From NCBI RefSeq assembly GCF_021729085.1, contig NZ_JAJSAR010000002.1, positions 806,001-870,000 of the forward strand: 64,000 nucleotides of DNA. Direction: 5' to 3'. Of this stretch, positions 5,188 through 23,622 are shown piece by piece (position 1 is the first letter of the stretch; each line of letters begins with the position of its first letter). A program made the position numbers and the translations under genes. The notes under the pieces were generated by a model. The model worked only from the letters and a program-made list of their open reading frames with translations. It was not told the origin of the DNA and did not search any database. This stretch comes from Pseudohongiella sp. O18. GTDB lineage: Bacteria; Pseudomonadota; Gammaproteobacteria; Pseudomonadales; Pseudohongiellaceae.

Positions 5188-5289
5188 AAATTCCTGCCAG
5201 ATGATACGTTTTGTATCTGAATAATATGAAAAAAAAACCTCAGAGCATGTACAATGCCGTCTGATTACCGCGGAATAGACTATAACGTT

Positions 5290-6654: not shown

Positions 6655-7637
6655 TGCCGAATCCTCAAGACACTGATCACCAGATTTATTACCGCGACGT
6701 CGTTTTTTACCGCCAGGTGCTTATAGCCGTTGCGCTCTGTGGCGTCACTGTGGCCATGCCATTTGCGGGATGGCACTTCATCTGGGGAAACCCGGTGATT
6801 ACCTACCTGCTGCTTCCTGTCATTGGGCTGCAGCTAGTGTCATTGTTGTTGCTGATTCGTCACGGTTTTAATCAGTGGATAGCCCTGTTTCTGGCATCCG
6901 TTCAGATGGGTGTGACCGTGATTATTAACATCCAGATGGGCGTTCTTGGGAGCTACTGGGTTATTGCGAGCGCCGTCGCCAACTACTACATCGTCAGTCG
7001 CAACATGGCTCTGGGCATCAACCTCATAGCCTGTATCACAGTGCTGCCATTGGCGTTTGAAAGTGGCGATATCATGTTCAGGTTTGCTATGGCCAACGCC
7101 ATGATCAATGTATTCCTGTATGCCTATGCCAGACAGCTCGAAACCAAAAATCGTGAACTTGAAGAATTGCTCACCAAGGATCCGTTGACCCGCGCCGGCA
7201 ATCGCACAGCTCTGGAGAACGCGCTTATCCGGGTAAAAAACCAGCATTTGCGCCACAACACGCCAGCCACCGTGTTGATGCTTGATCTGGATCACTTTAA
7301 AAAAATCAATGACACCGAAGGTCATACAGAGGGTGACAAAGTCCTGAAACGTCTGGCTGATCAGCTGCGGGCAAGGCTACGTGCAACAGATTCACTGTTC
7401 AGATACGGGGGCGAGGAATTTGTCATCATCGCTGACAACACCACATTGGACCAGGCCGCCTATCTGGCAGAAGACATTCGGCGCCGCGTCGAAAAGGCCA
7501 ATGAATTAACGGTATCCATTGGCCTGGCCGAACTGAAATCAGGTGAATCGACCGAGGATGTCGTATCGCGCGCCGATCAGGCTTTATACAAAGCCAAGCA
7601 GATGGGCCGCAACTGGGTTTGCTTCGACCCGGTTTAG
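6654..7637 (+). CDS. Membrane diguanylate cyclase (GGEEF)
   Basis: 327 residues. About six membrane segments fill residues 20-160 and form an unclassified MASE-like sensor. A GGDEF domain follows, with KDPLTRAGNR, LDLDHFKKINDTEGH, and an intact active site RYGGEEF. An I-site RATD lies five residues before GGEEF, so product inhibition is plausible. It should make c-di-GMP from GTP at the inner membrane. The start overlaps the gor stop by one base, suggesting cotranscription and perhaps a redox link. The 3-prime end overlaps the convergent multicopper oxidase gene by four bases. Confidence 0.9.
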   Translation: MPNPQDTDHQIYYRDVVFYRQVLIAVALCGVTVAMPFAGWHFIWGNPVITYLLLPVIGLQLVSLLLLIRHGFNQWIALFLASVQMGVTVIINIQMGVLGSYWVIASAVANYYIVSRNMALGINLIACITVLPLAFESGDIMFRFAMANAMINVFLYAYARQLETKNRELEELLTKDPLTRAGNRTALENALIRVKNQHLRHNTPATVLMLDLDHFKKINDTEGHTEGDKVLKRLADQLRARLRATDSLFRYGGEEFVIIADNTTLDQAAYLAEDIRRRVEKANELTVSIGLAELKSGESTEDVVSRADQALYKAKQMGRNWVCFDPV

Positions 7638-8923
7638 CTTGGCAAATCCTCAGGAGGGCCATCGACCCGGTAAGCCTGGGTCCCCTCTGGAATGCTAAAC
7701 CAGCCGTCAGGATCCAGCTCATCACCCTCATCACGAACCTTGATCAGGGTAAACATGCCACCCATTTCCATGGAGCCGAATGGACCCATGCCGCCCATCA
7801 TCGGCAAGGTATTCTCAGGACCTTGCATATGCCCCATGTCGATATGCATCTGATGTTCTGACATCCCGTGCTCGCCCATCGGCATATAGCCGGGGATCAG
7901 TTGTCTGATACGCCTCGCCACCTCTCTCTGGTTAACGCCGATGGTATTGGTGATGTCATGACCCATGGCATTCATGGTGTGGTGCGCCATATGACAATGC
8001 AGTGGCCAGTCGCCGGCGACAGCGTTGAACTCCAGATCACGGGTCTGACCTACACCGACCAGTTCGGTGACCTCTTTACGCCATAGCTCACGTGGCCAGC
8101 GACCGCCGTCAGAGCCGGTTACGTCGAACTGCACGCCATGCATGTGCATGGGATGGTTCCACATGGACAGATTGCCGATTCTCACCCGCACCCTTTCGCC
8201 TGTGCGCGCCATTAACGGAGCAATGGCTGGAAACACCTTGCTGTTCATGGTCCACAAATCGAAGTCGACCATGACACTGGGGTCCGGACGATAGGTACCG
8301 GGGTGCACAGCCCAGTTATGCAGCAGCAGGGCATAGTCCCGATCCACGGGCGGATTGCTACCCACGCGAGGGTGAATAATGAACATGCCCATCATTCCCA
8401 TGGCCATCTGCACCATCTCATCAGAGTGCGGATGGTACATGTGCGTGCCATGCTGTTTCAGTTCAAATTCATAGACCCAGGTTTCTCCAGGGTCAATCGC
8501 GCGCTGGGTCAGACCTGCCACGCCATCCATCCCAAATGGCAAAATAAGGCCGTGCCAGTGAATAGTGGTGGGTTCCTGCAGCCTGTTCGTCACATAGATG
8601 CGAACAAAATCACCTTCGACAGCTTCAATGGTGGGACCAGGTGTAGAGCCGTTATAGCCCCAGGCCTTTATTTTTGTTCCCGGTGCAAACTCGTGGTCCA
8701 CCTGCTCGGCAATAAGATGAAACTCCTTGACGCCATCACGCATCCGCCAGGGCAGGGTACGGCCGTTGGGCGTGACAACGGGCGTGTAGGGGAGAGCGTC
8801 GGTCGGGGTCAGATTGGCTTGTGCCAGCTCATCCAGTGCCGTTGGAGTCTGCGCACCTGCGCGGGAAACCAGACCTGCACCAAGCAAAGACGCTGCGCCG
8901 GCAATCATTTGTCGTCTGTTCAT
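7634..8923 (-). CDS. Tat-exported multicopper oxidase with Met-rich C-terminus
   Basis: 429 residues. The N-terminus MNRRQMIAGAASLLGAG has the twin arginines expected of a Tat signal. The first cupredoxin domain carries HWHG and HMYHPH. The last carries HPMHMHG and HCHMAHHTMNAM, which together supply all type 1, 2 and 3 copper ligands including an axial Met. A Met/His-rich tail (HQMHIDMGHMQG and MMGGMG) may bind extra copper. Periplasmic copper or phenol oxidation is likely, with Cu(I) oxidation the best guess from context. The start overlaps the upstream TolC-family gene by four bases (ATGA), so the two are translationally coupled. Confidence 0.9.
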   Translation of the reverse strand: MNRRQMIAGAASLLGAGLVSRAGAQTPTALDELAQANLTPTDALPYTPVVTPNGRTLPWRMRDGVKEFHLIAEQVDHEFAPGTKIKAWGYNGSTPGPTIEAVEGDFVRIYVTNRLQEPTTIHWHGLILPFGMDGVAGLTQRAIDPGETWVYEFELKQHGTHMYHPHSDEMVQMAMGMMGMFIIHPRVGSNPPVDRDYALLLHNWAVHPGTYRPDPSVMVDFDLWTMNSKVFPAIAPLMARTGERVRVRIGNLSMWNHPMHMHGVQFDVTGSDGGRWPRELWRKEVTELVGVGQTRDLEFNAVAGDWPLHCHMAHHTMNAMGHDITNTIGVNQREVARRIRQLIPGYMPMGEHGMSEHQMHIDMGHMQGPENTLPMMGGMGPFGSMEMGGMFTLIKVRDEGDELDPDGWFSIPEGTQAYRVDGPPEDLPS

Positions 8924-10326
8924 TGGAAGTCTCCTGTCTCAGCTACGTCGTCTGTGTCTATGCCTGTCAGTTTCAGTAGCAGGCTTTCTGCTTTCCAGTA
9001 GGCCAGCGTGTGCGCGACGTATTCGAGCTGTGCGTCAAACACCTGCTCCCGCAACGTCAGCAGTGAAAAAGTATCGCGCAACATAAAGTTGTACTCCTGC
9101 AGAGCCAGCTCCAACATGCGCTGATGGCGGGGCAGGTCTTCAGCATCCACCTGCCGGGCCAGCTCAGTCGCAGACCGCTTTGACATCAGTGCCTGCGAAA
9201 TAGTGTGCCGTGTCTCAGTTCTAGCCTGCTCAATCTGTGCCTGTAGAGAGGATCTCTGCGCCTTAATGTCTGCCAGGTGCGCATGCCCGCGATCAAACAA
9301 GGGGAGTTCGATGGATCCACCCAGTGCCAGCCTGCGCTCACTATTGGTCTCACGCTCAACACCAACCTTCACGGCACCATCAAGCAAACCGACCTGACGC
9401 TTTATCAAGCGCTCGGCAGCTAGTTGCTGATTCAGGGCTTCATCCAGCAGGCGCATACGGGGTTGAAATTGCTCGGCCAGGTTCATAGCCTGTCCCACGT
9501 CCATCAGTGATTGCTTGTCAGACTCAGGCACTTTGGGCAGCGAATCTGGTAATACGGGCAACTCATCCGGCATCAGACCCAGCAGGGATTGCAGTTCGCT
9601 GATCGCGATATCCGCTTCAAGTCTCGCTGCCTGCAGAGCTCGCTGCTGTCGCGCGTGCTCAGTCTCATAAACGAGAAAATCAAGCTCATTCAGGTTCCCC
9701 GCTGCCTGAACCTGCTGCGCAAACTCCAGCATGGCAAACGCCGTCTGATAAAGACCGTCGTGAACCGCCATCTGTTGTCTGCTCGCAACCGCGTTCAGCC
9801 AGGCCTGCCTGATCTGATGAAGGTACTCGGTCAGGTCATCCAGTACATCCAACTGATTAACCAGATGGACGGCACGTGCCCGGTCCAGACGGACCGAACG
9901 CGTCAACCAATCGGCCAATCCCAGCTCCAGTCCTGCTTCCAGCTGCCATCTGCCTGAGCCGGCCTCAGGTTCGAGGAAGCTTAGCTCAAATCCGGGATTT
10001 TCCAGCATTGATGCATTCCAGATTTCAGCCTGACTGCTTTGAAGTTCGGCAATCATGTGACTAACTCGAGGCGCGTTAGCGATTGCCCAGCGCTGCGCCT
10101 GACGCGGGTCCGGCCATTCCAACCCGACATTGGCTCCATCATTCGACGCGGGCTCTGTAGCCTGCTCTGACGAAACAATGAATTCAGGATCTGCGTTGAT
10201 ACCGGCAACAATAGCGGCCAATGGCGGCATCAGAGCAGCATCACTGGGAGGCTCCAGACTGCTGCAGCCTGCGAGAAACAAAATTAGTAATAGCGCGTAG
10301 CCGCGAGACTGTGAATTGATCATCAT
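8920..10326 (-). CDS. TolC/CusC-family outer-membrane efflux lipoprotein
   Basis: 468 residues with a lipoprotein signal ending LFLAGC. Two OEP-type repeats follow, rich in long heptad helices (the QAWLNAVASRQQ region and, later, SLQAQIEQARTE) and ending in a region with the LxLLTLREQVFDAQLEY pattern. It should form the outer-membrane channel of a tripartite pump or act in copper export. No adaptor or inner-membrane pump is encoded beside it; its partners are the downstream multicopper oxidase and the upstream small secreted protein. An AAGGG lies upstream of the start. Confidence 0.85.
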   Translation of the reverse strand: MMINSQSRGYALLLILFLAGCSSLEPPSDAALMPPLAAIVAGINADPEFIVSSEQATEPASNDGANVGLEWPDPRQAQRWAIANAPRVSHMIAELQSSQAEIWNASMLENPGFELSFLEPEAGSGRWQLEAGLELGLADWLTRSVRLDRARAVHLVNQLDVLDDLTEYLHQIRQAWLNAVASRQQMAVHDGLYQTAFAMLEFAQQVQAAGNLNELDFLVYETEHARQQRALQAARLEADIAISELQSLLGLMPDELPVLPDSLPKVPESDKQSLMDVGQAMNLAEQFQPRMRLLDEALNQQLAAERLIKRQVGLLDGAVKVGVERETNSERRLALGGSIELPLFDRGHAHLADIKAQRSSLQAQIEQARTETRHTISQALMSKRSATELARQVDAEDLPRHQRMLELALQEYNFMLRDTFSLLTLREQVFDAQLEYVAHTLAYWKAESLLLKLTGIDTDDVAETGDFQ

Positions 10327-10449
10327 CTAACCCTTTATACGTCCGGCGCTCGCAAGGAAGCACCAGCACGTCACAGATTCCAGAAACAGGCCCGCAGCGC
10401 ATAATCACAGCGTGATTGGCGGGTGACGTATCAAAAAAGCTTTAAAGGA

Positions 10450-10866
10450 TTAAAGGCAAGGAGGGCGGTGTGGCAGGTTTGTGTATCCAGGCAGCGTGAC
10501 AGACACGCCGGCATTGAGTGTTACATCCGCCTGGTCAGCTGTCAGTCGACCAGCGCCATGTTCATCAAAGCCAGGTTTGCTCTGGCATGAATTGATGCAA
10601 TGGCGGCACTCCAGCTCTAAGCCGGCACGATCACTGCTTTCATCGCCAGCTGATTTAATGATCGGGGGTTGCCCGTGACAGTCGGGACTGGCAGCTGATG
10701 ACAGATGCGAATCATGCTGTGCCGCGGCGTGTGACTGGAGCACTGCAACGTCCCGATGCTGCTCGCAGGCCAGCAGCCCACTGGCAAGCGCCTGGGATGG
10801 CAATACAAGCATCAAGATAAGGCTTATTGTCTTGATCAGTGATCGGGTTATCAATTGGATGTCCAC
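10450..10866 (-). CDS. Small secreted Cys/His-rich protein, unknown function
   Basis: 138 residues from a GTG start. A hydrophobic signal peptide (about residues 9-28, ending ALASG) is followed by a low-complexity mature part with CEQH, HAAAQHDSH, a CHG, and CRHCINSC. The cysteine and histidine spacing suggests metal binding, and the place at the head of the TolC/multicopper oxidase gene set suggests copper; both are inference. I do not recognise a named family. No good ribosome-binding site is visible before the GTG. The 123 bases between this gene and the TolC-family gene hold nothing I can identify. Confidence 0.6.
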   Translation of the reverse strand: MDIQLITRSLIKTISLILMLVLPSQALASGLLACEQHRDVAVLQSHAAAQHDSHLSSAASPDCHGQPPIIKSAGDESSDRAGLELECRHCINSCQSKPGFDEHGAGRLTADQADVTLNAGVSVTLPGYTNLPHRPPCL

Positions 10867-11166: not shown

Positions 11167-13635
11167 ATGAACTCTCAGTTCGATGATGAACTCGCCATTT
11201 TACGTGAACGCTATCGGCGCAACCTTTTAAACTATCGATCAGAGATCGAACAACACTGGTCATCTCTCCAACAGGATCGACGTTCCGTTCACCTGGAACA
11301 GCTTGCCATGCTTGCCCACCGGCTTGCTGGTTCAGGTCGAGCGTATGGTTTTGAAAAGTTGTCCCAGTTAGCCCGCTCGCTTGAACACACGATTGATCAC
11401 CAGGAAAAACCGGCGTCGGATGACCTGTTGACCCAACTGACCGAGCCGGTCAATCAGCTGCTTGCCCGCCTCCGCCTTGACGAGTCAGACCAGGATTCTG
11501 CCACGGAGCCACATACTTCGACTTCGGACCTCACCAGCCCGGATTACAATCCAGACGAGGTCAGAATACTGGTTGTTGATGACGACACGGATTTTTGCCT
11601 TAAGCTGTGCCACTTTTTAAGAAATCACGGCTACACCGTATTCAGTCTGAACGACATAGCCGGATTTGAAGACGCGGTCGCACGCTTCTCACCGAAGGCC
11701 GTCATTGTCGATATGGATTTCTATGGCCAACGCAAGGCCGGTGCGCAAACTGTGTTGAGCTGGCATGAACGGAGTGGCAAGCCCGTGCCAGTGATTTTCG
11801 TATCTGCCTTTGATTCAATGGATCTCAGGTTGGCGGCAGTGCGGGCCGGTGGAAATTTTTTCTTGAGTAAACCTCTAGACCAGCATCGTCTGCTGTTCAT
11901 ACTGGGCTCGGAACTCGATCTTCAACCAGCAGATGCATTTCGTGTATTACTGGTTGATGATGATGCAGATCTTCTCATCCTTTACGAATCAATCTTGACT
12001 CGGTCCGGCTACGCAGTTCATACCGCAAGCTGTGCGACAGAAGCCTTAAACCTGCTTGAGCAGGAATCCGTGGACCTTGTACTGATTGACGTTTATATGC
12101 CGGAGTTTAACGGCATTGAGCTAGGACAACTGATTCGTCAACACGAGCGCTTTGCTCACATTTCGCTTCTATTCATGTCTGCCTCTGCTGACACGGACGT
12201 CAGACTGGCCTGTGCCAGATTGACCAGCGATGAATTTATTAACAAACCCATCGAACCCTGGCGCCTGAACATGGTGATCAAGGCCCGCTCGACGCGCAAA
12301 CACAATCACCTGACTCGTTCTTATATCAATTACGATCAACACTGGCAGCAGTATGACCAGTTGACGGCACTCCCATCACTTAAGACGTTTCGCAAAGCAC
12401 TTCAACTCCGGCTGGAGACTTTAAATCCCAGTGAACATTTTGCAGTACTGAAAATCGATATCAGGCATTTTCATACCGTGAATAATCTTTATGGGTATTT
12501 CACTGGCAATCAGGTATTGCAACGTCTCGCATGGGAGTTGTCGCAGAGTCTGACATTGGATGATCTGCTGTGTCGTGAAAGCGGCGATGAATTTTTAGTC
12601 ATGACGGCTGTGACGACTGACCCATCAACCATTGACACGCTCGCGAAAAAACTAGCCGTCGAAACGAGTAAGCCCATGCAGTTCGATGACCAGCGAACCG
12701 TTTTGCTATCGGCAGACATCGGCGTTGTCGTAGCACCAAAAGATACCAACAACGCTGATGAACTTCTGCAGTACCTGGATACAGCTTTGTTCGCCGCCCG
12801 ACGCTCGACAGAAACCAGCATCTGTTACTTTGATACCTCCATGAGACATCGAGAGGTACTGACCTTTGGCCTGGCGCAGGAAGTCAAGCGTGGGTTGAAG
12901 GATGGGCAATTCATTGCGGTGTATCAGCCCATTTTTTCCGTCGCAGATGGGAAGTTGACTGGTTTTGAAGCACTAGCCCGATGGCAACACCCAGTACGAG
13001 GTCTTGTTTCACCACTGGAGTTCATACCTGTCCTGGAAGAGCACGGTTTGATAACTCAGCTGACCAAATCCATGCTGGAACTGGCGCTAGCACAGTTGGC
13101 GACCTGGCGTGTGAAGCATCCAGACCTTTATGTGTCTGTTAACCTCTCGGCCCGAGACATTCAGGAGCCGGACTTTATTCGTGTCCTGGAACACTTACTG
13201 CACCACTATCAGGTGCCATCAAACCGCGTATTACTTGAAATTACTGAAACTGTTTTGCTGGCGGACTGGCATAATGCATCCAAGTCAATCAACGATTTAA
13301 AAGCATTGGGCGTGAAACTGGCCCTGGATGATTTTGGCACTGGCTATAGTTCGTTGAGTTACCTGAGCAAAATACAGGCATCAACACTGAAAGTAGATCG
13401 CAGTTTTATCAACTCCTGGTCAGAATCAAGCGACGACAACCTCCTGTCCACGATGGTCCAGCTTGGACACGGAACTGGCATGAAAGTAGTGGCAGAGGGT
13501 GTGGAAACAATAGAGCAACTTAATTATCTGAAAGAAATCGGTTGCGACAATTATCAGGGATACCTGTTATCCAAACCCATGTCCAGCGATGATATCAGCG
13601 CAACCGAATGGTTTAAGACAGGAAGAGTGGTGTAA
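11167..13635 (+). CDS. Hpt-REC-REC-GGDEF(degenerate)-EAL signalling protein
   Basis: 822 residues, no membrane segment. An Hpt domain carries the phospho-histidine H51 in AHRLAGSGRAYGF. REC1 (about 131-250) has acceptor D182 and K235; REC2 (about 257-375) has DDD, acceptor D308 and K360. The GGDEF domain has ESGDEF at 471-476 in place of GGDEF and an altered DIRHFHTVNN, so cyclase activity is doubtful. The EAL domain is complete: EAL at 601-603, then VNLSARDIQ, LEITET, DDFGTGYSS, LKVDRSFI and AEGVET. It is therefore probably a phosphorelay-controlled c-di-GMP phosphodiesterase. It is first in the operon, with AAGGAG seven bases before the ATG. Confidence 0.9.
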   Translation: MNSQFDDELAILRERYRRNLLNYRSEIEQHWSSLQQDRRSVHLEQLAMLAHRLAGSGRAYGFEKLSQLARSLEHTIDHQEKPASDDLLTQLTEPVNQLLARLRLDESDQDSATEPHTSTSDLTSPDYNPDEVRILVVDDDTDFCLKLCHFLRNHGYTVFSLNDIAGFEDAVARFSPKAVIVDMDFYGQRKAGAQTVLSWHERSGKPVPVIFVSAFDSMDLRLAAVRAGGNFFLSKPLDQHRLLFILGSELDLQPADAFRVLLVDDDADLLILYESILTRSGYAVHTASCATEALNLLEQESVDLVLIDVYMPEFNGIELGQLIRQHERFAHISLLFMSASADTDVRLACARLTSDEFINKPIEPWRLNMVIKARSTRKHNHLTRSYINYDQHWQQYDQLTALPSLKTFRKALQLRLETLNPSEHFAVLKIDIRHFHTVNNLYGYFTGNQVLQRLAWELSQSLTLDDLLCRESGDEFLVMTAVTTDPSTIDTLAKKLAVETSKPMQFDDQRTVLLSADIGVVVAPKDTNNADELLQYLDTALFAARRSTETSICYFDTSMRHREVLTFGLAQEVKRGLKDGQFIAVYQPIFSVADGKLTGFEALARWQHPVRGLVSPLEFIPVLEEHGLITQLTKSMLELALAQLATWRVKHPDLYVSVNLSARDIQEPDFIRVLEHLLHHYQVPSNRVLLEITETVLLADWHNASKSINDLKALGVKLALDDFGTGYSSLSYLSKIQASTLKVDRSFINSWSESSDDNLLSTMVQLGHGTGMKVVAEGVETIEQLNYLKEIGCDNYQGYLLSKPMSSDDISATEWFKTGRVV

Positions 13636-13700
13636 GCTGATCACAGAATTTCCTGGAAGTCTTTCAGAGAGCTAGAAAGAGACCCGCCCTGGAGGCGCTC

Positions 13701-15677
13701 ATGCAGAAACCTGCAATACCCTGTAACGAGCCTGAGCGCTTGAAGGCATTACACAGTCTGCGATTATTGTTTACCGCCGCTGAGGCTCGATTTGACCGCA
13801 TCACGCGATTGGCACAGCGCGTGTTTGGTGTTGAAATCGCCTTGATTTCTCTGGTTGCAGAAGACATTCAGTGGTTCAAATCTCGTCAGGGACTTGATGT
13901 CACTCAAACTGAACGCAGTATTTCCTTCTGTGGTCACACAATCTTGCAGGACGAATTTCTGGTTGTTTCCGATACCCACGAGGACCCAAGATTTCGGGAC
14001 AACCCGCTGGTGACGGACGCACCCAATATACGGTTTTATGCCGGCGCGCCATTGAAATCCTTTGATGATCAGAATATTGGCACCTTGTGTTTAATTCATC
14101 CTCAACCTCGAACATTTACAAGCCAGGACAAGCTTTTGCTGCGCGACCTGGCAGATCTCGTTGAACAGGAATTTCAGCAGAACCATCTTCGCGACCAGCT
14201 CCTGCGCGCCGAGCGTGCTGAACAACGACTCGCATCATTTATTCAGGGCACCAATATCGGCACATGGGAGTGGAACGTTCAAACCGGAGAAACTGTTTTT
14301 AATGAGCGTTGGGCCAACATTGTCGGGTATACACTTGAGGAACTGGCACCTGTCAGCATTGAGACTTGGATGAATCTGGCTCACCCAGATGATTTGCAAC
14401 ACTCCGGACAGGCATTGGAAGCGCACTTTGCTGGCAAATCCGATTTCTACGATTTTGTTTGTCGAATGAAACACAAACTCGGACATTGGGTCTGGGTGCA
14501 TGACAGGGGCAAGTTGATCAGCCGCAATGCAAATGGAGAGCCGCTGATGATGACAGGCACACACGCCGACATCACCAAACAGATTGAAGCACAACAGGCG
14601 CTCAGTATCAGCGAAGCACGTTTGCGCGGTCTTTTCGAGCTCTCTCCACTGGGAATTGCACTTAATGACTTTGAAACTGGGACATTTATTGATGTCAATC
14701 CGGCACTGATTGCACCCACCGGCTACTCCGAAGAGGAGTTTCGGCAGCTGAGCTACTGGGAAGTGACACCTGAGGAGTATGCTGAACAGGAGCAAATACA
14801 GTTACAAAAAATGGAGGAAACTGGGCGCTACGGACCTTATGAAAAGGAGTACATCCGTAAAGACGGTAGTCGTTACCCGGTTTTGTTGAACGGTATGGTC
14901 GTTAAAGATGCCAACGGCCAGAAACTGATCTGGTCCATCATTGAGGACATTTCCGACCGCAAGCGGCTGGATCGCATGAAAAACGAGTTTATATCGACGG
15001 TCAGCCATGAGCTTCGAACGCCCCTTACAGCGATTCACGGTGCCCTTAAGCTAATGGCGTCTGGTTCGCTAGGCTCATCTGATGGGCCGTTTAACGACAT
15101 GGTGACGATTGCGGAGAAAAACAGCCAGCGTCTCCTTTTGTTGATAAATGATTTGCTTGACATGGAGCAGATGTTACTCGGCAAATTGAGCATCAACTTG
15201 CAATGGCAAGAACTCAAACCGTTGATAGAAGCGTCTATCCGGGAAAATATGCCATACGCCAGGCAGTATCAGGTTCAGTTGCGCTGTATAGATGACATCG
15301 GGGACCTCGAAGTTATGGTTGATTCGACGCGATTAATGCAGGTTATGGCTAACCTTTTATCGAACGCCATCAAATTTTCTCCGGCCCAAGGTGAGGTGCT
15401 TGTTCGCGTGGAAAACCAGGAGCATGGTATACGTATCAAGGTTATAGATGAGGGGCCAGGAATACCCGAAGAATTCAAGGAGCGAATTTTTCAAAAATTT
15501 TCTCAAGCTGATTCAACTGATTCTCGGCAAAAGGGGGGGACTGGCCTGGGCCTGGCCATCACACGAGAGCTCGTGGATAAAATGGGAGGGCAGATCGGTT
15601 TCAGCTCGTCCGTCAATCAGGGTTCCTGCTTTTACGTTGATTTACCAACGCGCACATCCGGCCGACAGGAGATTTGA
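13701..15677 (+). CDS. Cytoplasmic sensor histidine kinase GAF-PAS-PAS-HisKA-HATPase
   Basis: 658 residues without a membrane segment. In order: a GAF domain (about 25-160), PAS (180-295), PAS/PAC (305-420), HisKA with H436 in STVSHELRTPLTAIHG, and an ATPase domain with the N box NLLSNAIKFSP, the G1 box DEGPGIPEEF and GTGLGLAI. There is no receiver, so phosphate must go to a separate protein, most simply the REC proteins in the same operon. The ATG is preceded by GGAGG at six bases. The H-box region closely resembles that of the next gene, suggesting a duplicated kinase core with swapped sensors. Confidence 0.92.
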   Translation: MQKPAIPCNEPERLKALHSLRLLFTAAEARFDRITRLAQRVFGVEIALISLVAEDIQWFKSRQGLDVTQTERSISFCGHTILQDEFLVVSDTHEDPRFRDNPLVTDAPNIRFYAGAPLKSFDDQNIGTLCLIHPQPRTFTSQDKLLLRDLADLVEQEFQQNHLRDQLLRAERAEQRLASFIQGTNIGTWEWNVQTGETVFNERWANIVGYTLEELAPVSIETWMNLAHPDDLQHSGQALEAHFAGKSDFYDFVCRMKHKLGHWVWVHDRGKLISRNANGEPLMMTGTHADITKQIEAQQALSISEARLRGLFELSPLGIALNDFETGTFIDVNPALIAPTGYSEEEFRQLSYWEVTPEEYAEQEQIQLQKMEETGRYGPYEKEYIRKDGSRYPVLLNGMVVKDANGQKLIWSIIEDISDRKRLDRMKNEFISTVSHELRTPLTAIHGALKLMASGSLGSSDGPFNDMVTIAEKNSQRLLLLINDLLDMEQMLLGKLSINLQWQELKPLIEASIRENMPYARQYQVQLRCIDDIGDLEVMVDSTRLMQVMANLLSNAIKFSPAQGEVLVRVENQEHGIRIKVIDEGPGIPEEFKERIFQKFSQADSTDSRQKGGTGLGLAITRELVDKMGGQIGFSSSVNQGSCFYVDLPTRTSGRQEI

Positions 15678-17710
15678 CTCTCTTGGCCTCTTTCTACTTC
15701 AGGAACAAAACCCATTTCTTGTTCATAGAAGTCGCATTGTTTATTGCGATGTTGTTATTAACTGAATTCGCTGTAAGAGCTTACCGTGAAGCGTCACTCC
15801 AACAGTCGCGGTTAGAAACTCTGGATCGTGGAGCCCAGCTTCGCGCATTTCTTGAGTCGGAGATTAATCAGGCCGCATTTCTGGCAACTGGTGTTGAATC
15901 CTATGTCGTTGCTCGAGAAGGTAGTATTGAAGATGAAGAAATACAACGTATTCTGGCTTTGATTTTTGAGCGCAACCAACATTTTCGTAATATTGGCCTC
16001 GCACCTGGAAACCAATTAACCTGGGTGTATCCGGAGGCAGGCAATGAGTCCGTGCTGGGCTTAAATTACGCCGACCTGCCTGAACAATGGCCAGCAATCC
16101 AAAGAGTTATCGAAACAGGGCAGGGCATACTGAGTGGTCCGCTGGAACTGGTTCAAGGCGGCAATGGATTGATTTATCGATCCCCCGTTTACATTAACGA
16201 GAATTATTGGGGCCTGCTAAGTACCGTCATTGATGCTGACAGTCTCCTGAGTTTGATTAGATCAGCTGCTGGCGACCTCGCATCACGAATCTCGTTGCGC
16301 AATGTCGATGACGAAGGACAGCCAGGCAGAACTTTTTTTGGGGATAGTGAAAATTTCAACTCACCGCTGGAGCTTACGCCAGTACGCGTGCCAGGTGGTG
16401 AGTGGCAGATGGCTATCCAGCTGCCGGAAAACGTCGGTAGCCAGGTGATGTCACTGCGCATCTCAGGTGTATTTATTTCGATCTTGGTAGCTGTTTTTCT
16501 GGGCTCGATACTGCGCATGATCTGGCAACGTAACCTTCTCCAGCAACTGGATTCGGAAGTACTGACGCGGACCGCTGAACTGAGCGAGACGAATGACTTA
16601 TTGGATTCAGTGTTATCGGCGGCAAGATCATTCGCAATTATCGCGACTGATTTATCAGGCACCATTATTGTATTTAACAACGGGGCAGAGCGTATGCTGG
16701 GTTACTCTGCCGATGAAATGGTCGGCAAACACCAACCTGACATTTTTTTGCTAAATGATGAACTGCGCGAAAGGGCAGCCAAAATATCCGGTGAGTTGGG
16801 TCGACGACTGATTGGCAACGAGTTACTGACATACAGAATTAGTCAGGGTGGCACCGAAGAGTTGATGATCCACTATAAACATCGCGATGGTCACTTGATT
16901 CCCGTACAGGTCGTCATCAGTGCACTAACTGATCTTCAGGGCAAAGTCCGCGGTTACCTTGGTATTGCCGAAGATGTATCGGAAAGACTGCGCAACCAGA
17001 CACTTAAGGACCAATTCATTTCGACGGTCAGCCATGAGCTGCGTACACCATTGACAGCCATCACCGGCGCATTAGGCCTGATGCGGTCAGGGTCTATCGG
17101 CGCCTTACCTGAAACTGTGCAATCCATGGTGGAAATTGCCCATAACAATAGCCAGCGTCTTGCATCCCTGGTTAACGATTTACTGGATGTAGAAAAATTA
17201 ATGGCGGGCCGGATGGTGTTGTATCCTGACAAACAGGAGATTGCCGATCTGGTGCATTCTGCAGTCTCTGATCTACTACCGTTGGCGAAAATACAGAACG
17301 TGGAACTAAAAGAGCACGCGAACGTATCTGCCTGTATTTGGGTGGATTCGGCCCGTTTTCAGCAGGTTTTGACCAATCTCCTCAGTAACGCTATTAAGTT
17401 CTCACCACCGGGTGGGCAGGTTAGTATTACAACAGCCTTGGAATCAGGTCGGATCAGGATAATGGTGCTGGATCAGGGGTCAGGTATTCCTGAAAGTTTT
17501 CAGGATCATATTTTTCAGCGGTTTGCTCAAGCTGAAGCCGGAGACAGTCGACAAAAAGCGGGTACTGGCCTGGGTTTGGCAATCAGCAAGGAGCTAACCG
17601 AGCAGATGGGCGGCTGCATCGGGTTTGACGCCGAGCGATCTGAAGGTTGTTGCTTTTGGGTTGAGTTCCCGCTTTATAATGACGCCAGGTCCGGTAATGA
17701 AAATACCTGA
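15674..17710 (+). CDS. Membrane sensor histidine kinase CHASE-like-PAS-HisKA-HATPase
   Basis: 678 residues. Membrane segments at about 14-36 and 259-282 bracket a periplasmic region of some 220 residues that looks like a CHASE-type sensor (AFLESEINQAAFLATGVESY, NIGLAPGNQL, and SPVYINENYWGLLS later). A PAS domain (about 310-440) follows, then HisKA with H454 in STVSHELRTPLTAITG and an ATPase domain with NLLSNAIKFSP, DQGSGIPESF and GTGLGLAI. The start is a TTG at 15674 that overlaps the previous stop as TTGA, with AGGAG a few bases upstream. There is no receiver domain. Confidence 0.9.
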   Translation: MTLLASFYFRNKTHFLFIEVALFIAMLLLTEFAVRAYREASLQQSRLETLDRGAQLRAFLESEINQAAFLATGVESYVVAREGSIEDEEIQRILALIFERNQHFRNIGLAPGNQLTWVYPEAGNESVLGLNYADLPEQWPAIQRVIETGQGILSGPLELVQGGNGLIYRSPVYINENYWGLLSTVIDADSLLSLIRSAAGDLASRISLRNVDDEGQPGRTFFGDSENFNSPLELTPVRVPGGEWQMAIQLPENVGSQVMSLRISGVFISILVAVFLGSILRMIWQRNLLQQLDSEVLTRTAELSETNDLLDSVLSAARSFAIIATDLSGTIIVFNNGAERMLGYSADEMVGKHQPDIFLLNDELRERAAKISGELGRRLIGNELLTYRISQGGTEELMIHYKHRDGHLIPVQVVISALTDLQGKVRGYLGIAEDVSERLRNQTLKDQFISTVSHELRTPLTAITGALGLMRSGSIGALPETVQSMVEIAHNNSQRLASLVNDLLDVEKLMAGRMVLYPDKQEIADLVHSAVSDLLPLAKIQNVELKEHANVSACIWVDSARFQQVLTNLLSNAIKFSPPGGQVSITTALESGRIRIMVLDQGSGIPESFQDHIFQRFAQAEAGDSRQKAGTGLGLAISKELTEQMGGCIGFDAERSEGCCFWVEFPLYNDARSGNENT

Positions 17711-17758
17711 CGCAGAGAGTCATTTAATTCAGCAGTAGCAGGAGCAAAGAGGTTACGG

Positions 17759-18151
17759 ATGAGTGATTTGATTCGTGTCATGTATGTAGAAGATGAGCCA
17801 GATATCCGAGCCGTCGCCAAACTGGCGCTAGAAGTAGTGGGTGGTTTGACCGTCAGTCTGTGCGAGCGTGGAGACCTGGCCGTTTCCCAGGCAGAGCATT
17901 TTTCGCCGCAGATGATTTTGTTGGATGTAATGATGCCCGGGATGGACGGGCCGAGCACCTTAAAAGCCTTGCGCGAACACCCCCAATTGCATGCCGTGCC
18001 GGTTGCATTCATGACAGCCAAAGTACAGGCGCATGAAGTAGACCGTTTTATAAGCCTGGGGGCCATCGGTGTCATTCCCAAGCCTTTTGATCCAATGACA
18101 CTGGCTCAACAGGTCAAAGATTTGTGGCGTCTCACGGAGGAGCAGTCTTGA
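17759..18151 (+). CDS. Single-domain response regulator (CheY-like)
   Basis: 130 residues forming one receiver domain: acidic pair EDE at 11-13, acceptor D56 in LLDVMMPGMDG, the switch threonine in FMTAK, and the conserved lysine in VIPKPFD. There is no output domain. It lies between the two kinases and the last Hpt-REC-REC-GGDEF protein, and could act as a phosphate shuttle from a kinase to an Hpt domain, or as a sink. That role is inferred from position. Its stop is overlapped by the TTG start of the next gene. Confidence 0.92.
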   Translation: MSDLIRVMYVEDEPDIRAVAKLALEVVGGLTVSLCERGDLAVSQAEHFSPQMILLDVMMPGMDGPSTLKALREHPQLHAVPVAFMTAKVQAHEVDRFISLGAIGVIPKPFDPMTLAQQVKDLWRLTEEQS

Positions 18152-19812
18152 ATTTTAATGAGCAGTTACAGGCAATTCAGGATGAGTATCTAAAGAAACT
18201 GCCAGTCGTGTTGGACCAGATATCCTTGCTGGCACAGGAGTTACAGCTGACTGCACCGAGGCGAGATCAATTAGTAATACTGGGACAGGAATTGCACAAA
18301 CTGGCCGGATCTGCGGGCACGTTCGGTCTGACACGACTCAGTTCGCGTGCCGCTGAACTAAATAAGAACCTTGATAGCATTTTGTCTTCGAATTCGGCTG
18401 AAAGTGACCTCAGAAATAAAGGTCTGCAGCTTAAAGAAGCGCTGGACTCTCTTAGCCTGTTCGCAAAGCCTGGCCCAAATCCCAACCCGAGCCTCATCAC
18501 TCCGGACGCAGACGTAACACGTACAACCAATAACAAGCCATTGCTCGATCAAATATGGCTTCTTGAGGCTGAACCTCAACTGGGCGCAACGCTGATGGCC
18601 CATCTGGAATCTTTTAATTTTTCAGCGCGACTGTTTACCAACCTTAGCGAACTGGCGTCAGCGTTTGAATCAGACCAGCCGCAAATTTTGTTGCTGGATA
18701 TTCCATTGGAGAATGAGGGTCCTTCTACTGATTTTCATTCTCAATGCCAATTTTTTCAGAACACATCTTCACGCGTTGTTTTTATCAGTAGTAAAGACGA
18801 TTTTGCTGCACGGCTCGAGGCTGCCAGCCTCGGGGCACAAGCCTATTTTGTCAAACCCCTCGACATACCAAATTTGATAAATCGGATCGAACAAATTGTC
18901 GCCAATCTGCATTCGCCTGCAGAGAAAGTTCTGATTATCGATGATGATGAGATGTTGGCACAGTACTATCGACAGGTGCTGATCGGGGCGGGGATGCAAG
19001 CAGAAATCCTCGCCAGGCCAGAGAAAGTCATCTCAGCTTTAGAATCGAACACCCCTGATGTGATTTTGATGGACCTGCAAATGCCTGGAATCAGTGGACA
19101 GAATCTTGCCGCCGTGATCAGACAATACGGGCGGTGGGTTGGTCTGCCAATTGTCTATTTGTCTGCAGAGCACGATCCCCATTTACAATTACTCGCTCTC
19201 AAGCAAGGAGCAGACGACTTTCTGGTAAAACCCATTTCTAATGAGCACCTCGTTACTGTGGTCAAATCAAAAGTAGCCCGGTCACGGCAGCTGATTGATC
19301 TGATGACTAAAGACAGCCTGACAAGTTTGCTTAAGCATGCAGCCATCAAAGACGCCTTGCGCAGAGAACTGGATCTCGCGCGCCGTAAACGGGAAGAATT
19401 ATGTGTTGCCATGATGGATATAGACCATTTCAAGCAGATTAATGACCAATTCGGCCATGCCATGGGAGATGAGGTTATTGCCTCGGTAGCGACATTACTT
19501 CGGATGCGACTGCGAAGAACGGATGTACTTGGACGCTACGGCGGCGAAGAATTCGTCGTGATTATGGGTAACTGCAGTGGTGATAAGGCATTTAAGGTTC
19601 TCGACGATTTCAGGCAACGCTTCCAGGAGCTGAAGTTTTCAGACGAAGAGAAGGTATTCAGCGCGACCATATCAATAGGAATCGCACCGATTAAATCCTC
19701 ACATGAGATTGATGCTGATATGTTGCTTGTGGCGGCGGACAAAGCCATGTACGCGGCCAAGTCGATGGGGCGTAACAAAGTTGTACTGCACGACGCCGGG
19801 AGTGCTGGTTAA
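18148..19812 (+). CDS. Hpt-REC-REC-GGDEF diguanylate cyclase
   Basis: 554 residues. The Hpt domain has H50 in ELHKLAGSAGTFGL. REC1 (about 135-250) keeps acceptor D184 and K236 but has a weak acidic pocket (EAE). REC2 (about 259-375) has DDD, D309 and K361. The GGDEF domain is intact: MDIDHFKQINDQFGH, GGEEF at 465-469, and an I-site RRTD at 456-459. It should make c-di-GMP under phosphorelay control. The frame is open to a GTG at 18124, but the TTG at 18148 overlaps the previous stop as TTGA and has GGAGGAG at a good distance, so it is preferred. It is the last gene of the operon. Confidence 0.9.
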   Translation: MNFNEQLQAIQDEYLKKLPVVLDQISLLAQELQLTAPRRDQLVILGQELHKLAGSAGTFGLTRLSSRAAELNKNLDSILSSNSAESDLRNKGLQLKEALDSLSLFAKPGPNPNPSLITPDADVTRTTNNKPLLDQIWLLEAEPQLGATLMAHLESFNFSARLFTNLSELASAFESDQPQILLLDIPLENEGPSTDFHSQCQFFQNTSSRVVFISSKDDFAARLEAASLGAQAYFVKPLDIPNLINRIEQIVANLHSPAEKVLIIDDDEMLAQYYRQVLIGAGMQAEILARPEKVISALESNTPDVILMDLQMPGISGQNLAAVIRQYGRWVGLPIVYLSAEHDPHLQLLALKQGADDFLVKPISNEHLVTVVKSKVARSRQLIDLMTKDSLTSLLKHAAIKDALRRELDLARRKREELCVAMMDIDHFKQINDQFGHAMGDEVIASVATLLRMRLRRTDVLGRYGGEEFVVIMGNCSGDKAFKVLDDFRQRFQELKFSDEEKVFSATISIGIAPIKSSHEIDADMLLVAADKAMYAAKSMGRNKVVLHDAGSAG

Positions 19813-19861: not shown

Positions 19862-19901
19862 CCCACTATTTCCGGTAATAAAGATTACCGGAAATAGTGG
19901 G
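19862..19901. terminator. Perfect 18-bp inverted repeat between convergent genes
   Basis: CCCACTATTTCCGGTAAT at 19862-19879 and its exact complement at 19884-19901 flank a four-base loop AAAG. A second, weaker pair, TGATAC at 19857-19862 and GTATCA at 19909-19914, surrounds it. There is no T-run on either side. The place between the end of the signalling operon and the convergent phosphatase gene suggests transcript-end formation or RNA protection for both, but it is not a classical intrinsic terminator. Confidence 0.6.
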
Positions 19902-19959: not shown

Positions 19960-20535
19960 TCAGCCACCAACCTGAGACGGCGTCCAGTCGCAGCCTTCGC
20001 ACTCTGGTGAAATGCCGTGATCTGCCAGTACCTCAAATATCAGGTCGCGCCAGGTTTCATTCGGCTGCCAGACTGTGTTCATGTCAGCTTTGGCTTCTGC
20101 GACCGGCACATCCTCATAGACGACGCGATACATAAAACTGAATGCCGTAGCGCGCGCATTAACCTGGCAATGCAGCAGCGTTTTCTGTTCAGGGTTGCGT
20201 TGCATGGCATCGGCAAACGCATAGAAATCACGCTTGGTCGGGTTGTTCCAGTCCACCGGGATATGCAGGTAATCCATGCCAAGCCCTTTGACGACCTGAT
20301 CAGCATTGGCCAGTGCGTTGTCATTCGTGGTAAACGCAATGTAGATGACACGCTCGTAGCCGGCATCGCGGATGGCCTCAAACTGCTCGGCTGTCGGCTG
20401 ACCAGCGCTGGCAAAGGTGTCGCTGTACTCACGCAGGTTCAATACATCCGACAAAGTAGACTGAGCATTGACACTTGCGGCCATGAGCACTCCCAGTAGT
20501 GCACCGGAAACTTTCAATATCATGTTTCTTTTCAT
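19960..20535 (-). CDS. Secreted protein tyrosine phosphatase-like protein (DUF442-like)
   Basis: 191 residues with a signal peptide ending SVNAQ. The core has SAGQPTAEQFEAIRDAGY and a P-loop HCQVNARA of the C-x4-R type, which resembles the DUF442/beta-lactamase-hydrolase-like phosphatase group rather than the classical C-x5-R loop. The catalytic cysteine and arginine are both present. Two further cysteines near the C-terminus (CEGC) could form a disulfide. It starts 30 bases after the RND pump gene in the same direction, so it is likely the last gene of the tetR-adaptor-pump operon. The substrate is unknown. Confidence 0.8.
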   Translation of the reverse strand: MKRNMILKVSGALLGVLMAASVNAQSTLSDVLNLREYSDTFASAGQPTAEQFEAIRDAGYERVIYIAFTTNDNALANADQVVKGLGMDYLHIPVDWNNPTKRDFYAFADAMQRNPEQKTLLHCQVNARATAFSFMYRVVYEDVPVAEAKADMNTVWQPNETWRDLIFEVLADHGISPECEGCDWTPSQVGG

Positions 20536-20565: not shown

Positions 20566-23500
20566 TTAAACTGTGGCAGTGCCAGCAGCTTTGATGCGGA
20601 ACAATATCGCATAAAATACGGGCACTGCCACCAGTGTCAATACGGTCGCAAACGCCAAACCGCCCATAATTGTGACTGCCATGCTGGCAAAAAATGCATC
20701 TGACAACAGTGGAATCATACCCAGAATGGTTGTCGCCGCCGCCAGGAACACGGGACGCAGACGACTTACCGAGGCATCAACAACCGCCTTAAAGTCATCC
20801 TTGCCCTCTTCCCGCTGTGCATCGATTTCGTCTACCAGGACAATTGCGTTTTTCATCAGCATGCCCGAAAGACTCAACAGGCCCAACAAGGCAGTGAAGC
20901 TGAAAGGCAGATTGCTGAGCAACAGTCCTGCCACCACACCGCAGACCGACATTGGCACAACCAGCCAGATGATCAGCGGCTGGCGTACCTTGCCAAAGAT
21001 GAGCACGGATATGATAAGCATCGACAGGAAGCTTAATGGCAGCTGAGCACCCAGCGAAGCCTGTGCTTCGCTTGAAGCCTCAAACTCACCACCCCAGGTT
21101 AATGTGTAACCCGGCGGCAGAGGGATAGCCTCAATATGTGGCCTCACCTGTCGCAGTACCTCATCAGCCGTTTTACCCATGACCGGGTCTGCCAGGACTG
21201 AAATCGTCCTTGCCCTGTCCCGCCGGATAATCATGGTTTCTTCGGCATCTGTGGTGAACTGGTCGACTACCTGCGTGATAGGCACGTAACGCTGCTCGCC
21301 ACTGCTCCATACCAGCCGCTCCTGAAATCGCTCTACGGCCAGCCGCTCCTGATCCGGCGGCCGGATGATGATAGGCACCCTTTCATCACCCTCGCGGTAT
21401 GATCCTGCACGCACACCTGTGCTGGCAAACTCCAGCGTCTGCGCCAGATCGCTGCGGGCCACACCGGCAAGACGCGCTCTCTCATCGTTGAATTGCGGTG
21501 CGATGACCAGTTCGCGCTGGTACCAGTTGTGCCGCAGATCGATAACATCGGGATCCTGCGAAAGCACTGTGATTGCCTCATCTGCCAGCCGCCGCAATTC
21601 GCGTGGGTCTGGACCGCTGAAACGCGCTTCCAGTTTGGCACCGGCGCCAGGTCCGAATACCAGGCGTCGCGTACGGATATCTGCCGCTGGGTATTGTTGA
21701 GCAAGGTCAGTGCGAATCTGGGCTGTCAGATCATCTATCACATCACGGCTTTCGGTGCGGACAATCAAGTGGCCGTAGGAATCATCAGGCTGCTCGGGCT
21801 CATAGGTCAGCATGAAGCGTGAGGCACCCTGCCCCACAAAGCTGGCGACACTCTCTACCCCTTGCAGTGCCAGTACCTGTTCGTCCAGCCGTGCAGTATC
21901 ACGAGCCGTGGCCCGGATATCGCTGCCCTGCGGCAGTCTGTAATCAACAAAAAAGATCGGCGTGTTGGAATCGGGGAAAAACGCCTGTTTGACCGACCCG
22001 AAACCCCAATAACTGACTACTGTGATCAGCAGCAAAGCAAGCACAGTGACAGCCCGCATGGCCAGTGTCGTATGCAGAATGCGACGGTACAGGGCGTAGA
22101 ACAGGCCACGATACGGATCGGCCCCTGAATCACCACCGCCTTTGACCTTCAGCAAATAGTCTCCGAACAGAGGTGTGACGGTGACAGCCAGCAGCCAGCT
22201 CAGCAACAGTGAAATACCGATCACGGCGAACAATGAGAACAGGAACTCTCCCGTGGTGTCCTGGGACAGGCCGATACCGGAAAACGCCATGATACCGATC
22301 AGGGTCGCACCCAGAAGCGGCCACTGAGTACGCACCGCGGCTTCGCTGGCGGCCTTGTGGGCTTTCATGCCACGTTGCATATTGATCAGCATGCCTTCGG
22401 CAATAACGATAGCGTTATCAACCAGCATCCCCATAGCAATAATCAATGCGCCCAGCGAGATACGCTCCATCTCGATGTTAAAGATGCGCATGAAAAACAC
22501 GGTACCAAGGACGGTCAGTAACAGCGTCAGGCCAACCACCAGCCCTACCCGCCAACCCATGAACAGACACAGCACGCCGACAACAATGGCAACGGACATT
22601 GCGAGATTAACGATGAAGGCGTTGATAGCCTCATCAACGACAATGTGCTGTTCATAAATTGGGTGGAGTTCAACACCCAGCGGAATCTGGGTCTGCAATT
22701 CGGACAGTTTGGCTGACACCGCCTGCCCTACTTCAACAATATTGGCATCAGCAATGCCGGCAACTGCCAGTGTAAAGGCATCCTGGCCATTAAAACGGAT
22801 GGGCTGATCAGGGATTTCCTGAGCCTCGCGACTAACCGACGCCATGTCCACCAGACTGATCTGATCGGTGCTGCCAGGTCGCCCGATCCGCAAAGATTCG
22901 ATATTGGCCACGCTGTCGAACCCAGGCGAGTTGGCGATCCGAACGTTCAAGTCCCCTATTCTCGCGGCCCCAGCCGGCTGAACCGCATTCTCGGACTCGA
23001 TGCTGTTGATGACCTGCGACAACGGAATACCGGAGCTGATCAGCTTGTCGTTGGGTACTTCCACGTAAATGGCTTCGTTGGGCAGGCCACGAATTTCAAC
23101 CTTGGCAACACCATTGACGGTCAGTAATTCCCGTCGTAAAAATCTCGATATGTCACGTACTTCTCTGATTGTGTAACCATCAGCAGTTACGGCGTAGAAA
23201 ATACCAAAAACATCACTGAAGTCATCGTTGACAATGCTCGGTCCGGCACCTTCTGGCAGGCTGCGCTGAAAATCATTCACCTTGCGGCGCAGCTCATCCC
23301 ATATCTGAGGTATCTGCTCGCCGGTATAAGTATCCTGGATCTCGACAGTTATCTCAGAACGGCCGGGCGTCGATTTGGAGCGAATACGTTTCAATTGGCC
23401 GAGCTGCTGGATGGCGGACTCCAGGTGTTCGGTGACTTCCTGTTCAACTTCCCTGGCAGTCGCGCCCGGATAAGGTGTGACCACAACTGCCTGCTTCAGG

Positions 23501-23622
23501 GTGAAGGCAGGATCCTCGAGTCGCCCGACAGTTTCGATACCCCACCAGCCGCCCAGCAGCAGAACAATAATCAGCAGCCAGGTATTAACTGGCTTTTCAA
23601 TAGCATAGCGCGCAAAGTCCAT
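20566..23622 (-). CDS. RND efflux pump, inner-membrane permease
   Basis: 1018 residues, the length of the hydrophobe/amphiphile RND class. It starts with one membrane segment (TWLLIIVLLLGGWWGI), has two large periplasmic loops and about 12 membrane helices. The TM4 signature reads GMLVDNAIVIAEG, so the second aspartate of the usual DD pair is asparagine; the TM10 lysine is kept in LSGMLMKNAIVLVDE. It should export small hydrophobic or toxic compounds using the proton gradient. The adaptor ends 14 bases upstream. No outer-membrane channel is in this operon; a TolC protein from elsewhere is presumably used. Confidence 0.92.
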   Translation of the reverse strand: MDFARYAIEKPVNTWLLIIVLLLGGWWGIETVGRLEDPAFTLKQAVVVTPYPGATAREVEQEVTEHLESAIQQLGQLKRIRSKSTPGRSEITVEIQDTYTGEQIPQIWDELRRKVNDFQRSLPEGAGPSIVNDDFSDVFGIFYAVTADGYTIREVRDISRFLRRELLTVNGVAKVEIRGLPNEAIYVEVPNDKLISSGIPLSQVINSIESENAVQPAGAARIGDLNVRIANSPGFDSVANIESLRIGRPGSTDQISLVDMASVSREAQEIPDQPIRFNGQDAFTLAVAGIADANIVEVGQAVSAKLSELQTQIPLGVELHPIYEQHIVVDEAINAFIVNLAMSVAIVVGVLCLFMGWRVGLVVGLTLLLTVLGTVFFMRIFNIEMERISLGALIIAMGMLVDNAIVIAEGMLINMQRGMKAHKAASEAAVRTQWPLLGATLIGIMAFSGIGLSQDTTGEFLFSLFAVIGISLLLSWLLAVTVTPLFGDYLLKVKGGGDSGADPYRGLFYALYRRILHTTLAMRAVTVLALLLITVVSYWGFGSVKQAFFPDSNTPIFFVDYRLPQGSDIRATARDTARLDEQVLALQGVESVASFVGQGASRFMLTYEPEQPDDSYGHLIVRTESRDVIDDLTAQIRTDLAQQYPAADIRTRRLVFGPGAGAKLEARFSGPDPRELRRLADEAITVLSQDPDVIDLRHNWYQRELVIAPQFNDERARLAGVARSDLAQTLEFASTGVRAGSYREGDERVPIIIRPPDQERLAVERFQERLVWSSGEQRYVPITQVVDQFTTDAEETMIIRRDRARTISVLADPVMGKTADEVLRQVRPHIEAIPLPPGYTLTWGGEFEASSEAQASLGAQLPLSFLSMLIISVLIFGKVRQPLIIWLVVPMSVCGVVAGLLLSNLPFSFTALLGLLSLSGMLMKNAIVLVDEIDAQREEGKDDFKAVVDASVSRLRPVFLAAATTILGMIPLLSDAFFASMAVTIMGGLAFATVLTLVAVPVFYAILFRIKAAGTATV

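Follow-up and report, generated by a model that had tools for sequence, protein, structure and literature searches.

A stretch of 64,000 nucleotides from Pseudohongiella sp. O18 (contig NZ_JAJSAR010000002.1, positions 806,001 to 870,000; hereafter the window) carries, between its positions 11,167 and 19,812, five genes which on comparative sequence evidence are a real, conserved phosphorelay unit. They encode two histidine kinases (HK) without receivers, a single-domain receiver (REC) protein, here called the lone REC, and two long proteins in which a histidine phosphotransfer (Hpt) domain is followed by two receivers, REC1 and REC2, and then by output domains of cyclic di-GMP (c-di-GMP) metabolism. 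The unit probably works as a multi-step relay, HK to lone REC to Hpt to REC2, in which both kinases act on one hub that serves a cyclase and a phosphodiesterase. Gene 4, the lone REC, would accept phosphate from the CHASE kinase and from the GAF-PAS-PAS kinase once these had autophosphorylated. Its recipients would be two Hpt histidines, one heading the gene 5 cyclase and one heading the gene 1 phosphodiesterase. From either Hpt the phosphate would move on to REC2 in the same polypeptide, the receiver that immediately precedes GGDEF, and so switch the output enzyme, while REC1 would be an accessory or adaptor receiver. Such a locus would have the topology of a bow-tie phosphorelay. The content of a multi-step phosphorelay, namely an HK, an intermediate REC, a His-bearing Hpt and a terminal REC, is present with intact sites; from this and from the comparisons below we infer the direction of transfer, the intramolecular step from Hpt to REC2, the sharing of the hub and the sense in which each enzyme responds.

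All five reading frames lie on the same strand, and Pfam agrees with the domains assigned to them in the original prediction, which had been made from the letters alone. Gene 1 is a predicted phosphorelay-controlled c-di-GMP phosphodiesterase, because the defects of its GGDEF domain (SGDEF, no I-site Arg, one guanine-binding Asp missing) stand alongside an EAL domain with the complete set of usual catalytic residues. Gene 5 is a predicted diguanylate cyclase, because it has a GGEEF motif and an intact RxxD I-site. These motifs, whose functional meaning is general knowledge, were read directly. Both receiver pockets of gene 1 are intact (DDDSK), as is that of REC2 in gene 5; in REC1 of the latter the Asp is present, while the acidic pair is degenerate through loss of one pocket residue. 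Hydrophobic stretches flank the CHASE domain of gene 3 and suggest membrane anchoring. An AlphaFold2 model of gene 5 (31 sequences; mean pLDDT 87, pTM 0.74) has an N-terminal helical bundle with the Hpt histidine on its second helix, and the nearest folds found by Foldseek are PleD, the best, and then WspR and DgcR.

The lone REC of gene 4 belongs to a distinct conserved family (alignment A2), found mainly in Gammaproteobacteria and also in beta- and alphaproteobacteria and in Chloroflexus. Of 94 neighbouring lone RECs compared, 89 show the full receiver pocket and five have an alignment gap at the Lys. Over the 94 loci the lone REC has a median pairwise identity of 55%, ahead of REC2 (44%), Hpt (31%) and REC1 (26%); it is thus the most conserved component, as expected of a hub.

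The presence of this family follows the Hpt histidine from genome to genome. Presence was scored at E ≤ 1e-38 on the A2 alignment, with at most 11 candidates per genome. The order sample comprised 390 genomes; 41 have an Hpt-REC-REC protein with the histidine (His+), 39 of them chosen by score and two (G242, G398) added after the Hpt had been read. The lone REC family was found in 39 of these 41, in which the histidine was read throughout, in none of 31 genomes with only relatives that lack it (His-, of GcbA/AdcA type; the absence was read in all 31), and in 24 of the 318 remaining genomes. The contrast holds within families, at 12/12 His+ vs 0/5 His- genomes in f20, 4/4 vs 0/13 in f21 and 1/1 vs 0/5 in f39, or 17/17 vs 0/23 when the three are pooled, and the link is also seen where the two genes sit on different contigs (G074, G131, G147). 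The two exceptions among the 41, G130 and G209, have another REC of 118-120 aa and a CheA-like Hpt-HK-REC kinase gene before the cyclase. In G130, the one of the two in which Pfam confirmed the CheA chassis, the matches are to MCP, CheB, CheR, CheA with Hpt and REC, a REC protein, the cyclase and CheW, an arrangement much like cluster 2 of Halomonas, considered below.

Adjacency of genes points the same way: among GGDEF-ending proteins, 72 His+ have a lone REC nearby and 15 do not, and for His- proteins the figures are 1 and 40 (here, and in the counts of receiver pockets and of hybrid-kinase loci, identical proteins were counted once). As proof, adjacency statistics alone were rejected, since nearly all His- rows come from one clade, and they were replaced by the presence and absence in genomes with the within-family contrasts.

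A second line of evidence comes from loci that have the lone REC and in which no Hpt-REC-REC protein was detected, 21 of which were picked by hand (11/24 order and 10/23 class genomes). A free Hpt gene follows directly after the lone REC in 9/21 (L321, L322, L328, L371, L372, L374, L376, L379, L380). Seven of these nine free Hpts pass the Pfam Hpt cut-off; that of L322 is sub-threshold and that of L321 has no Pfam match. In L330 (G313) a His+ Hpt-REC-REC-GGDEF gene adjoins the lone REC, and in L323 (G021) a His+ Hpt-REC-REC protein lies about 4.5 kb from it, both below the search threshold.

As to the final acceptor, REC2 looks like the obligate receiver, because its pocket is near-universally intact and that of REC1 often is not, being degenerate in gene 5. 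Among His+ cyclases the pocket is intact in 85/87 for REC2 and 41/87 for REC1, and among His- cyclases in 40/41 and 0/41. That REC2 would switch the output enzyme is supported by its place, since activation through a receiver that adjoins GGDEF is known from DgcR and PleD; for DgcR, phosphorylation of this REC was reported to activate the enzyme (PMC8041772). The original prediction left undecided whether the Hpt serves the RECs of its own protein or the lone REC. The comparative evidence suggests both in succession: phosphate would most likely pass from the lone REC through the Hpt to REC2 of the same protein.

The near-universal canonical REC2 would also suit direct two-component control with a drain, in which the kinases phosphorylate REC2 (or REC1) and the Hpt and lone REC remove the phosphate as a sink. 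Single-domain RECs can be sinks (PMC5964349), and the coupling of Hpt to lone REC by itself gives no direction. However, a lone REC without a detected Hpt-headed enzyme often adjoins a kinase, a free Hpt or both, and the phosphoacceptor signature described next is enriched near lone RECs (relatedness being ignored), as fits kinase-to-lone REC specificity. We therefore regard the drain as unlikely, while giving it more weight than the other alternatives.

The kinase cores of genes 2 and 3 are 49% identical over 231 residues, their phosphoacceptor regions are nearly the same, and both carry the signature F.STVSHE[LI]RTPLT.I.G. Near lone RECs this signature occurs in 39/86 non-hybrid and 34/44 hybrid kinases, vs 8/59 kinases at loci without a lone REC; relatedness among the kinases is ignored in these counts. 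The inputs probably converge on one hub. A single detected lone REC occurs with both a cyclase and a phosphodiesterase in the genome of the window (G000) and in G007, G514, G637 and G652. The original prediction of a branched relay driving c-di-GMP up or down from two inputs keeps its opposite predicted outputs; its two separate channels fare less well. With two kinases and two Hpt-headed enzymes of opposite predicted activities in one cluster, one kinase might serve the cyclase and the other the phosphodiesterase as insulated branches pushing c-di-GMP in opposite directions, and G084 and G236, which have both enzymes, indeed have two lone RECs each. Yet the genome of the window has only one lone REC of the A2 family, and G514, G637 and G652 combine a single detected lone REC and a cyclase with a phosphodiesterase on another contig. 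The similar kinase cores and the single lone REC with both enzymes make a shared hub likelier in the window, and insulation improbable.

Hybrid kinases are found at 42 of the 80 homologous loci with a kinase. DivK acts allosterically, and the lone REC here might do likewise, being a regulator rather than a shuttle, with hybrid kinases encoded elsewhere as the input to the relay. The operon of divK with pleD reported for Sinorhizobium meliloti (PMC4414408), a lone REC encoded with PleD, is in keeping with such a role, as is the frequency of hybrid kinases. This account does not, however, predict that the lone REC should track the Hpt histidine or pair with free Hpt genes, and it appears the least probable of those considered.

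Several observations weigh against the proposed relay. The lone REC persists in relatives whose kinase is hybrid, so it does more than stand in for a receiver that the kinase lacks. At 9/21 of the hand-picked loci (L324, L326, L327, L329, L331, L373, L375, L377, L378; 5/11 order, 4/10 class) the surroundings of the lone REC showed no Hpt, and in L325 the Hpt fused to a lone REC has no histidine. In the class sample the link is weaker: the lone REC is present in 40/56 genomes with the A1 module (16 without) vs 23/313 module-less genomes. This count leaves out three of 59 matched genomes (G540, G567, G778; late-starting matches, G778 being His-, L227) and keeps G598, G502 and G765, also late-starting, and the His- G502 and G760. 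The 16 misses include two His- genomes (G502, G760), G130 with its CheA chassis, two genomes with a different 120-aa REC adjoining the gene (G486, G622) and five of Hpt-REC-REC-PAS-HK type (G529, G531, G615, G746 and G760, the last also counted as His-); the remaining seven are His+ and showed no lone REC in the fetched stretch (G534, G541, G547, G607, G650, G713, G751). A tree of 125 rows (L099, L150 and L156 left out) gave 2-4 independent pairs of adjacency and histidine, too few for significance, and the covariation of Hpt with lone REC, scored as mutual information, did not exceed that of control pairs (Neff 71).

The REC-Hpt fusion of L325 (positions 4762-5550, minus strand) joins a lone REC to an Hpt-like region and adjoins an intact lone REC and a PAS-HK gene. 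It was considered as a Rosetta stone for the pair and discounted, the histidine being missing and Pfam finding no Hpt.

The Hpt-REC-REC head is far from confined to Pseudohongiella. The named loci are the best 80 of at least 547 relatives, to which further genomes from the genus, order and class samples were added; their domains, like those of the hand-picked loci, were annotated with hidden Markov models grown from the window's own domains, so that a weak Hpt call in a His- protein carries no independent weight. A kinase gene, a lone REC and Hpt-REC-REC-GGDEF follow one another in this order in gamma-, beta- and alphaproteobacteria (e.g. L101, L083, L143) and in a locus of Myxococcales (L108), where the Hpt His is replaced by Gln. 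In Chloroflexus (L112) a hybrid HK, a lone REC and a free Hpt gene accompany a REC-REC-GGDEF-REC protein. Other fusions, in many genera, put the head before GGDEF-EAL or PAS-HK(-REC). Hpt followed by REC-REC, which had been thought an unusual order, is not rare; it is a recurrent input module with varied outputs.

Among the variants, six loci (L231, L254, L255, L261, L367, L368) have the head before PAS and histidine kinase domains, so that the output of the relay is itself a kinase. In five others (L094, L102, L106, L109 of Marinobacter, and L243) divergent kinases lie opposite Hpt-REC-REC-GGDEF, a REC protein of about 381-384 aa and a lone REC. In two of these Marinobacter-type loci (L109, L243) the 381-aa neighbour was considered as an HD-GYP phosphodiesterase; this was rejected, both proteins being REC-HDOD. 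In L322 (G081) REC-GGDEF, FHA-EAL, PAS-PAS-HK, lone REC and a weak Hpt are all separate, resembling a dissected form of the window operon.

A broader reading is tentative, with odds slightly below even: that a widespread and apparently unnamed hub REC takes up phosphate from numerous kinases, hybrid as well as non-hybrid, and feeds exchangeable Hpt-headed cyclases, phosphodiesterases and kinases; that in the genus of the window one hub feeds both enzymes, the two Hpts competing for one phosphorylated REC and thereby setting c-di-GMP; and that GcbA/AdcA is an escaped member which lost the Hpt histidine together with the hub.

Within the genus the unit is conserved in part. Gene 5 was matched at E ≤ 1e-60 in 4 of 15 genomes (its own included, some incomplete) and had no match in 11; the search for conserved neighbourhoods that had been proposed thus found the unit in these four genomes, and the module in many other bacteria. 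The gene order recurs in three other species: G008 has the layout of the window, G007 has a hybrid CHASE kinase, and in G002 an extra hybrid kinase, PAS-HK-REC-REC, is inserted. The claim that both kinases lack receivers therefore holds in the window, but not in G007 and G002. In another family of the order (G236, locus L220) a lone REC, Hpt-REC-REC-GGDEF and a hybrid kinase lie with a convergent Hpt-REC-REC-GGDEF-EAL gene; the pairing of cyclase and phosphodiesterase therefore recurs.

The short gaps and two TTGA overlaps noted at the outset were confirmed: two junctions are gaps of 65 and 48 bp, and the other two (genes 2/3 and 4/5) are 4-base overlaps. They support a compact unit, and cotranscription of the five genes may be presumed from it. 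Because of the overlap with gene 4, the start of gene 5 is most likely the TTG at 18148 and not the mechanically assigned GTG at 18124. Promoter-like matches are not enriched over shuffles (8 observed vs 10.4), and terminator-like matches are slightly commoner (15 vs 10.5, sd 3.2), including a plus-strand match that spans the junction of genes 2 and 3; the inverted repeat downstream of gene 5 (Table 1) is not among the terminator-like sites of the scan. These scans decide nothing on the operon.

Table 1. Features of the phosphorelay cluster, in window coordinates.
Feature	Coordinates	Strand	Description	Basis
Gene 1	11167..13635	+	822 aa; Hpt (H51)-REC1 (D182)-REC2 (D308)-degenerate GGDEF (SGDEF)-EAL	Pfam (Hpt, 2x Response_reg, GGDEF, EAL) and motif reading
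Gene 2	13701..15677	+	658 aa; GAF-PAS-PAS-HisKA-HATPase sensor kinase, no receiver	Pfam (GAF, PAS_3, PAS_9, HisKA, HATPase_c)
Gene 3	15674..17710	+	678 aa; TTG start; CHASE-PAS-HisKA-HATPase kinase, no receiver	Pfam (CHASE, over cut-off; PAS_9, HisKA, HATPase_c)
Gene 4	17759..18151	+	130 aa; lone REC (D56), proposed phosphotransfer hub	Pfam (Response_reg) and motif reading
Gene 5	18148..19812	+	554 aa; TTG start; Hpt (H50)-REC1 (EADSK)-REC2 (D309)-GGEEF	Pfam (Hpt, 2x Response_reg, GGDEF) and motif reading
Inverted repeat	19862..19901	.	18 bp, perfect, 4-base loop, no T-run; 3' of gene 5, possible operon end	

The genome of the window has 33 GGDEF matches. One further GGDEF protein (6654-7637, plus strand; 327 aa, hydrophobic N-terminal half, GGEEF) is encoded a few kb upstream of the cluster. 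Between the two, on the minus strand (7634-10866), lies a copper-resistance-like group, named by eye: a multicopper oxidase-like protein of 429 aa, a CusC-like efflux lipoprotein of 468 aa and a 138-aa protein. Downstream, also on the minus strand, are a PTP-NADK-like phosphatase with an apparent N-terminal signal peptide (19960-20535) and beside it an RND-type transporter, again by eye (20566-23622).

The closest described system is chemosensory cluster 2 of Halomonas titanicae KHS3, in which an Hpt-REC-REC-GGDEF cyclase was reported in 2018; its authors proposed a phosphorelay, counted 83 proteins of this organisation and knew of none that had been characterised (PMC5907407). A search of the open-access literature listed no follow-up on this cyclase. 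Gene 5 has the same make-up, with Hpt, two RECs and GGDEF in order and phosphorylatable residues, and in both cases the cyclase is encoded with a stand-alone REC, CheY2 in Halomonas, in an operon-like cluster. The Halomonas kinase, in contrast, is of CheA type and comes with MCP, CheB, CheR and CheW (PMC5907407), and Pfam finds no che genes in 11167-19812. The window has instead two HisKA kinases, a lone REC of another family and an added Hpt-REC-REC-GGDEF-EAL phosphodiesterase. The original statement that the arrangement was not known as a described system is thus too broad for Hpt-REC-REC-GGDEF; it appears to hold for the five genes together, no description of which, or of this lone REC family, was found in the titles and abstract openings of the open-access papers listed by our searches. 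The parts seen of PMC11841396, PMC6416229, PMC4618731 and PMC8846402 contain nothing on the Hpt-REC-REC organisation.

GcbA/AdcA (PA4843) of Pseudomonas is a REC-REC-GGDEF cyclase with one probable phosphorylation site, D300 (PMC3946381, PMC9355167), and its partner kinase was reported as unknown in 2014 (PMC3946381). The Pseudomonas members of our set were taken as GcbA by their two RECs and GGDEF, not by comparison with PA4843. They resemble the window cyclase in these domains and in the intact REC2; unlike it, they have an N-terminal region without the Hpt histidine and without a Pfam Hpt match (L130 and L081 scanned), and no lone REC near the gene. Gene 5, with its Hpt histidine, is not a stand-alone REC-REC-GGDEF gene of this type.

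In Caulobacter the non-hybrid kinases DivJ and PleC act on the lone REC DivK and on the REC-REC-GGDEF cyclase PleD, the first REC of which is the phosphorylated receiver. The window shares the non-hybrid kinases, the lone REC and a cyclase with tandem RECs followed by an intact GGDEF. PleD, however, is not known to carry an Hpt and is phosphorylated on REC1, whereas gene 5 has an Hpt and the conserved receiver of its family is REC2; nor do gene 5 (203 bits) and gene 1 (147 bits) reach the cut-off of 474 bits for PRK09581, the NCBIfam equivalog of PleD. Gene 4 is over no NCBIfam cut-off among the 25 families listed out of 88. We know of no phosphodiesterase partner in the divK-pleD operon.

The proposed logic is most like that of relays in which a single-domain REC collects from kinases and passes to histidine phosphotransferases. 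Spo0F gathers phosphate from several kinases in this manner and hands it to the phosphotransferase Spo0B, and thence to Spo0A. In Caulobacter MrrA, a REC with the FATGUY motif, was reported to link several kinases to the kinase-like phosphotransferases PhyK and LovK (PMC5964349); RECs of this group are discussed in PMC9981736. Unlike MrrA, the lone REC of the window has FMTAKVQ as its strand-4 motif, and its Hpt partners would be fused to c-di-GMP enzymes; strand 4 of the A2 family reads F-M-T-A-K, compared here with the letters of the name FATGUY and not with the full definition of that motif. The Hmr pathway, in which Hpts act with a hybrid kinase on c-di-GMP, is a looser parallel (PMC11481889).

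Set beside these systems, the Hpt-REC-REC-GGDEF organisation was already known from Halomonas, while what is new is the hub REC with its tie to the Hpt histidine, and the pairing of two outputs that oppose each other. The comparison proposes, in a form open to test, how cyclases of a kind without a characterised member known to the authors of 2018 may be wired, predicting REC2 as acceptor and the lone REC as donor, and it offers a reason for GcbA/AdcA having no known partner kinase. The window would thus hold a compact natural circuit whose single phosphorylated shuttle could supply both synthesis and breakdown of the same messenger.

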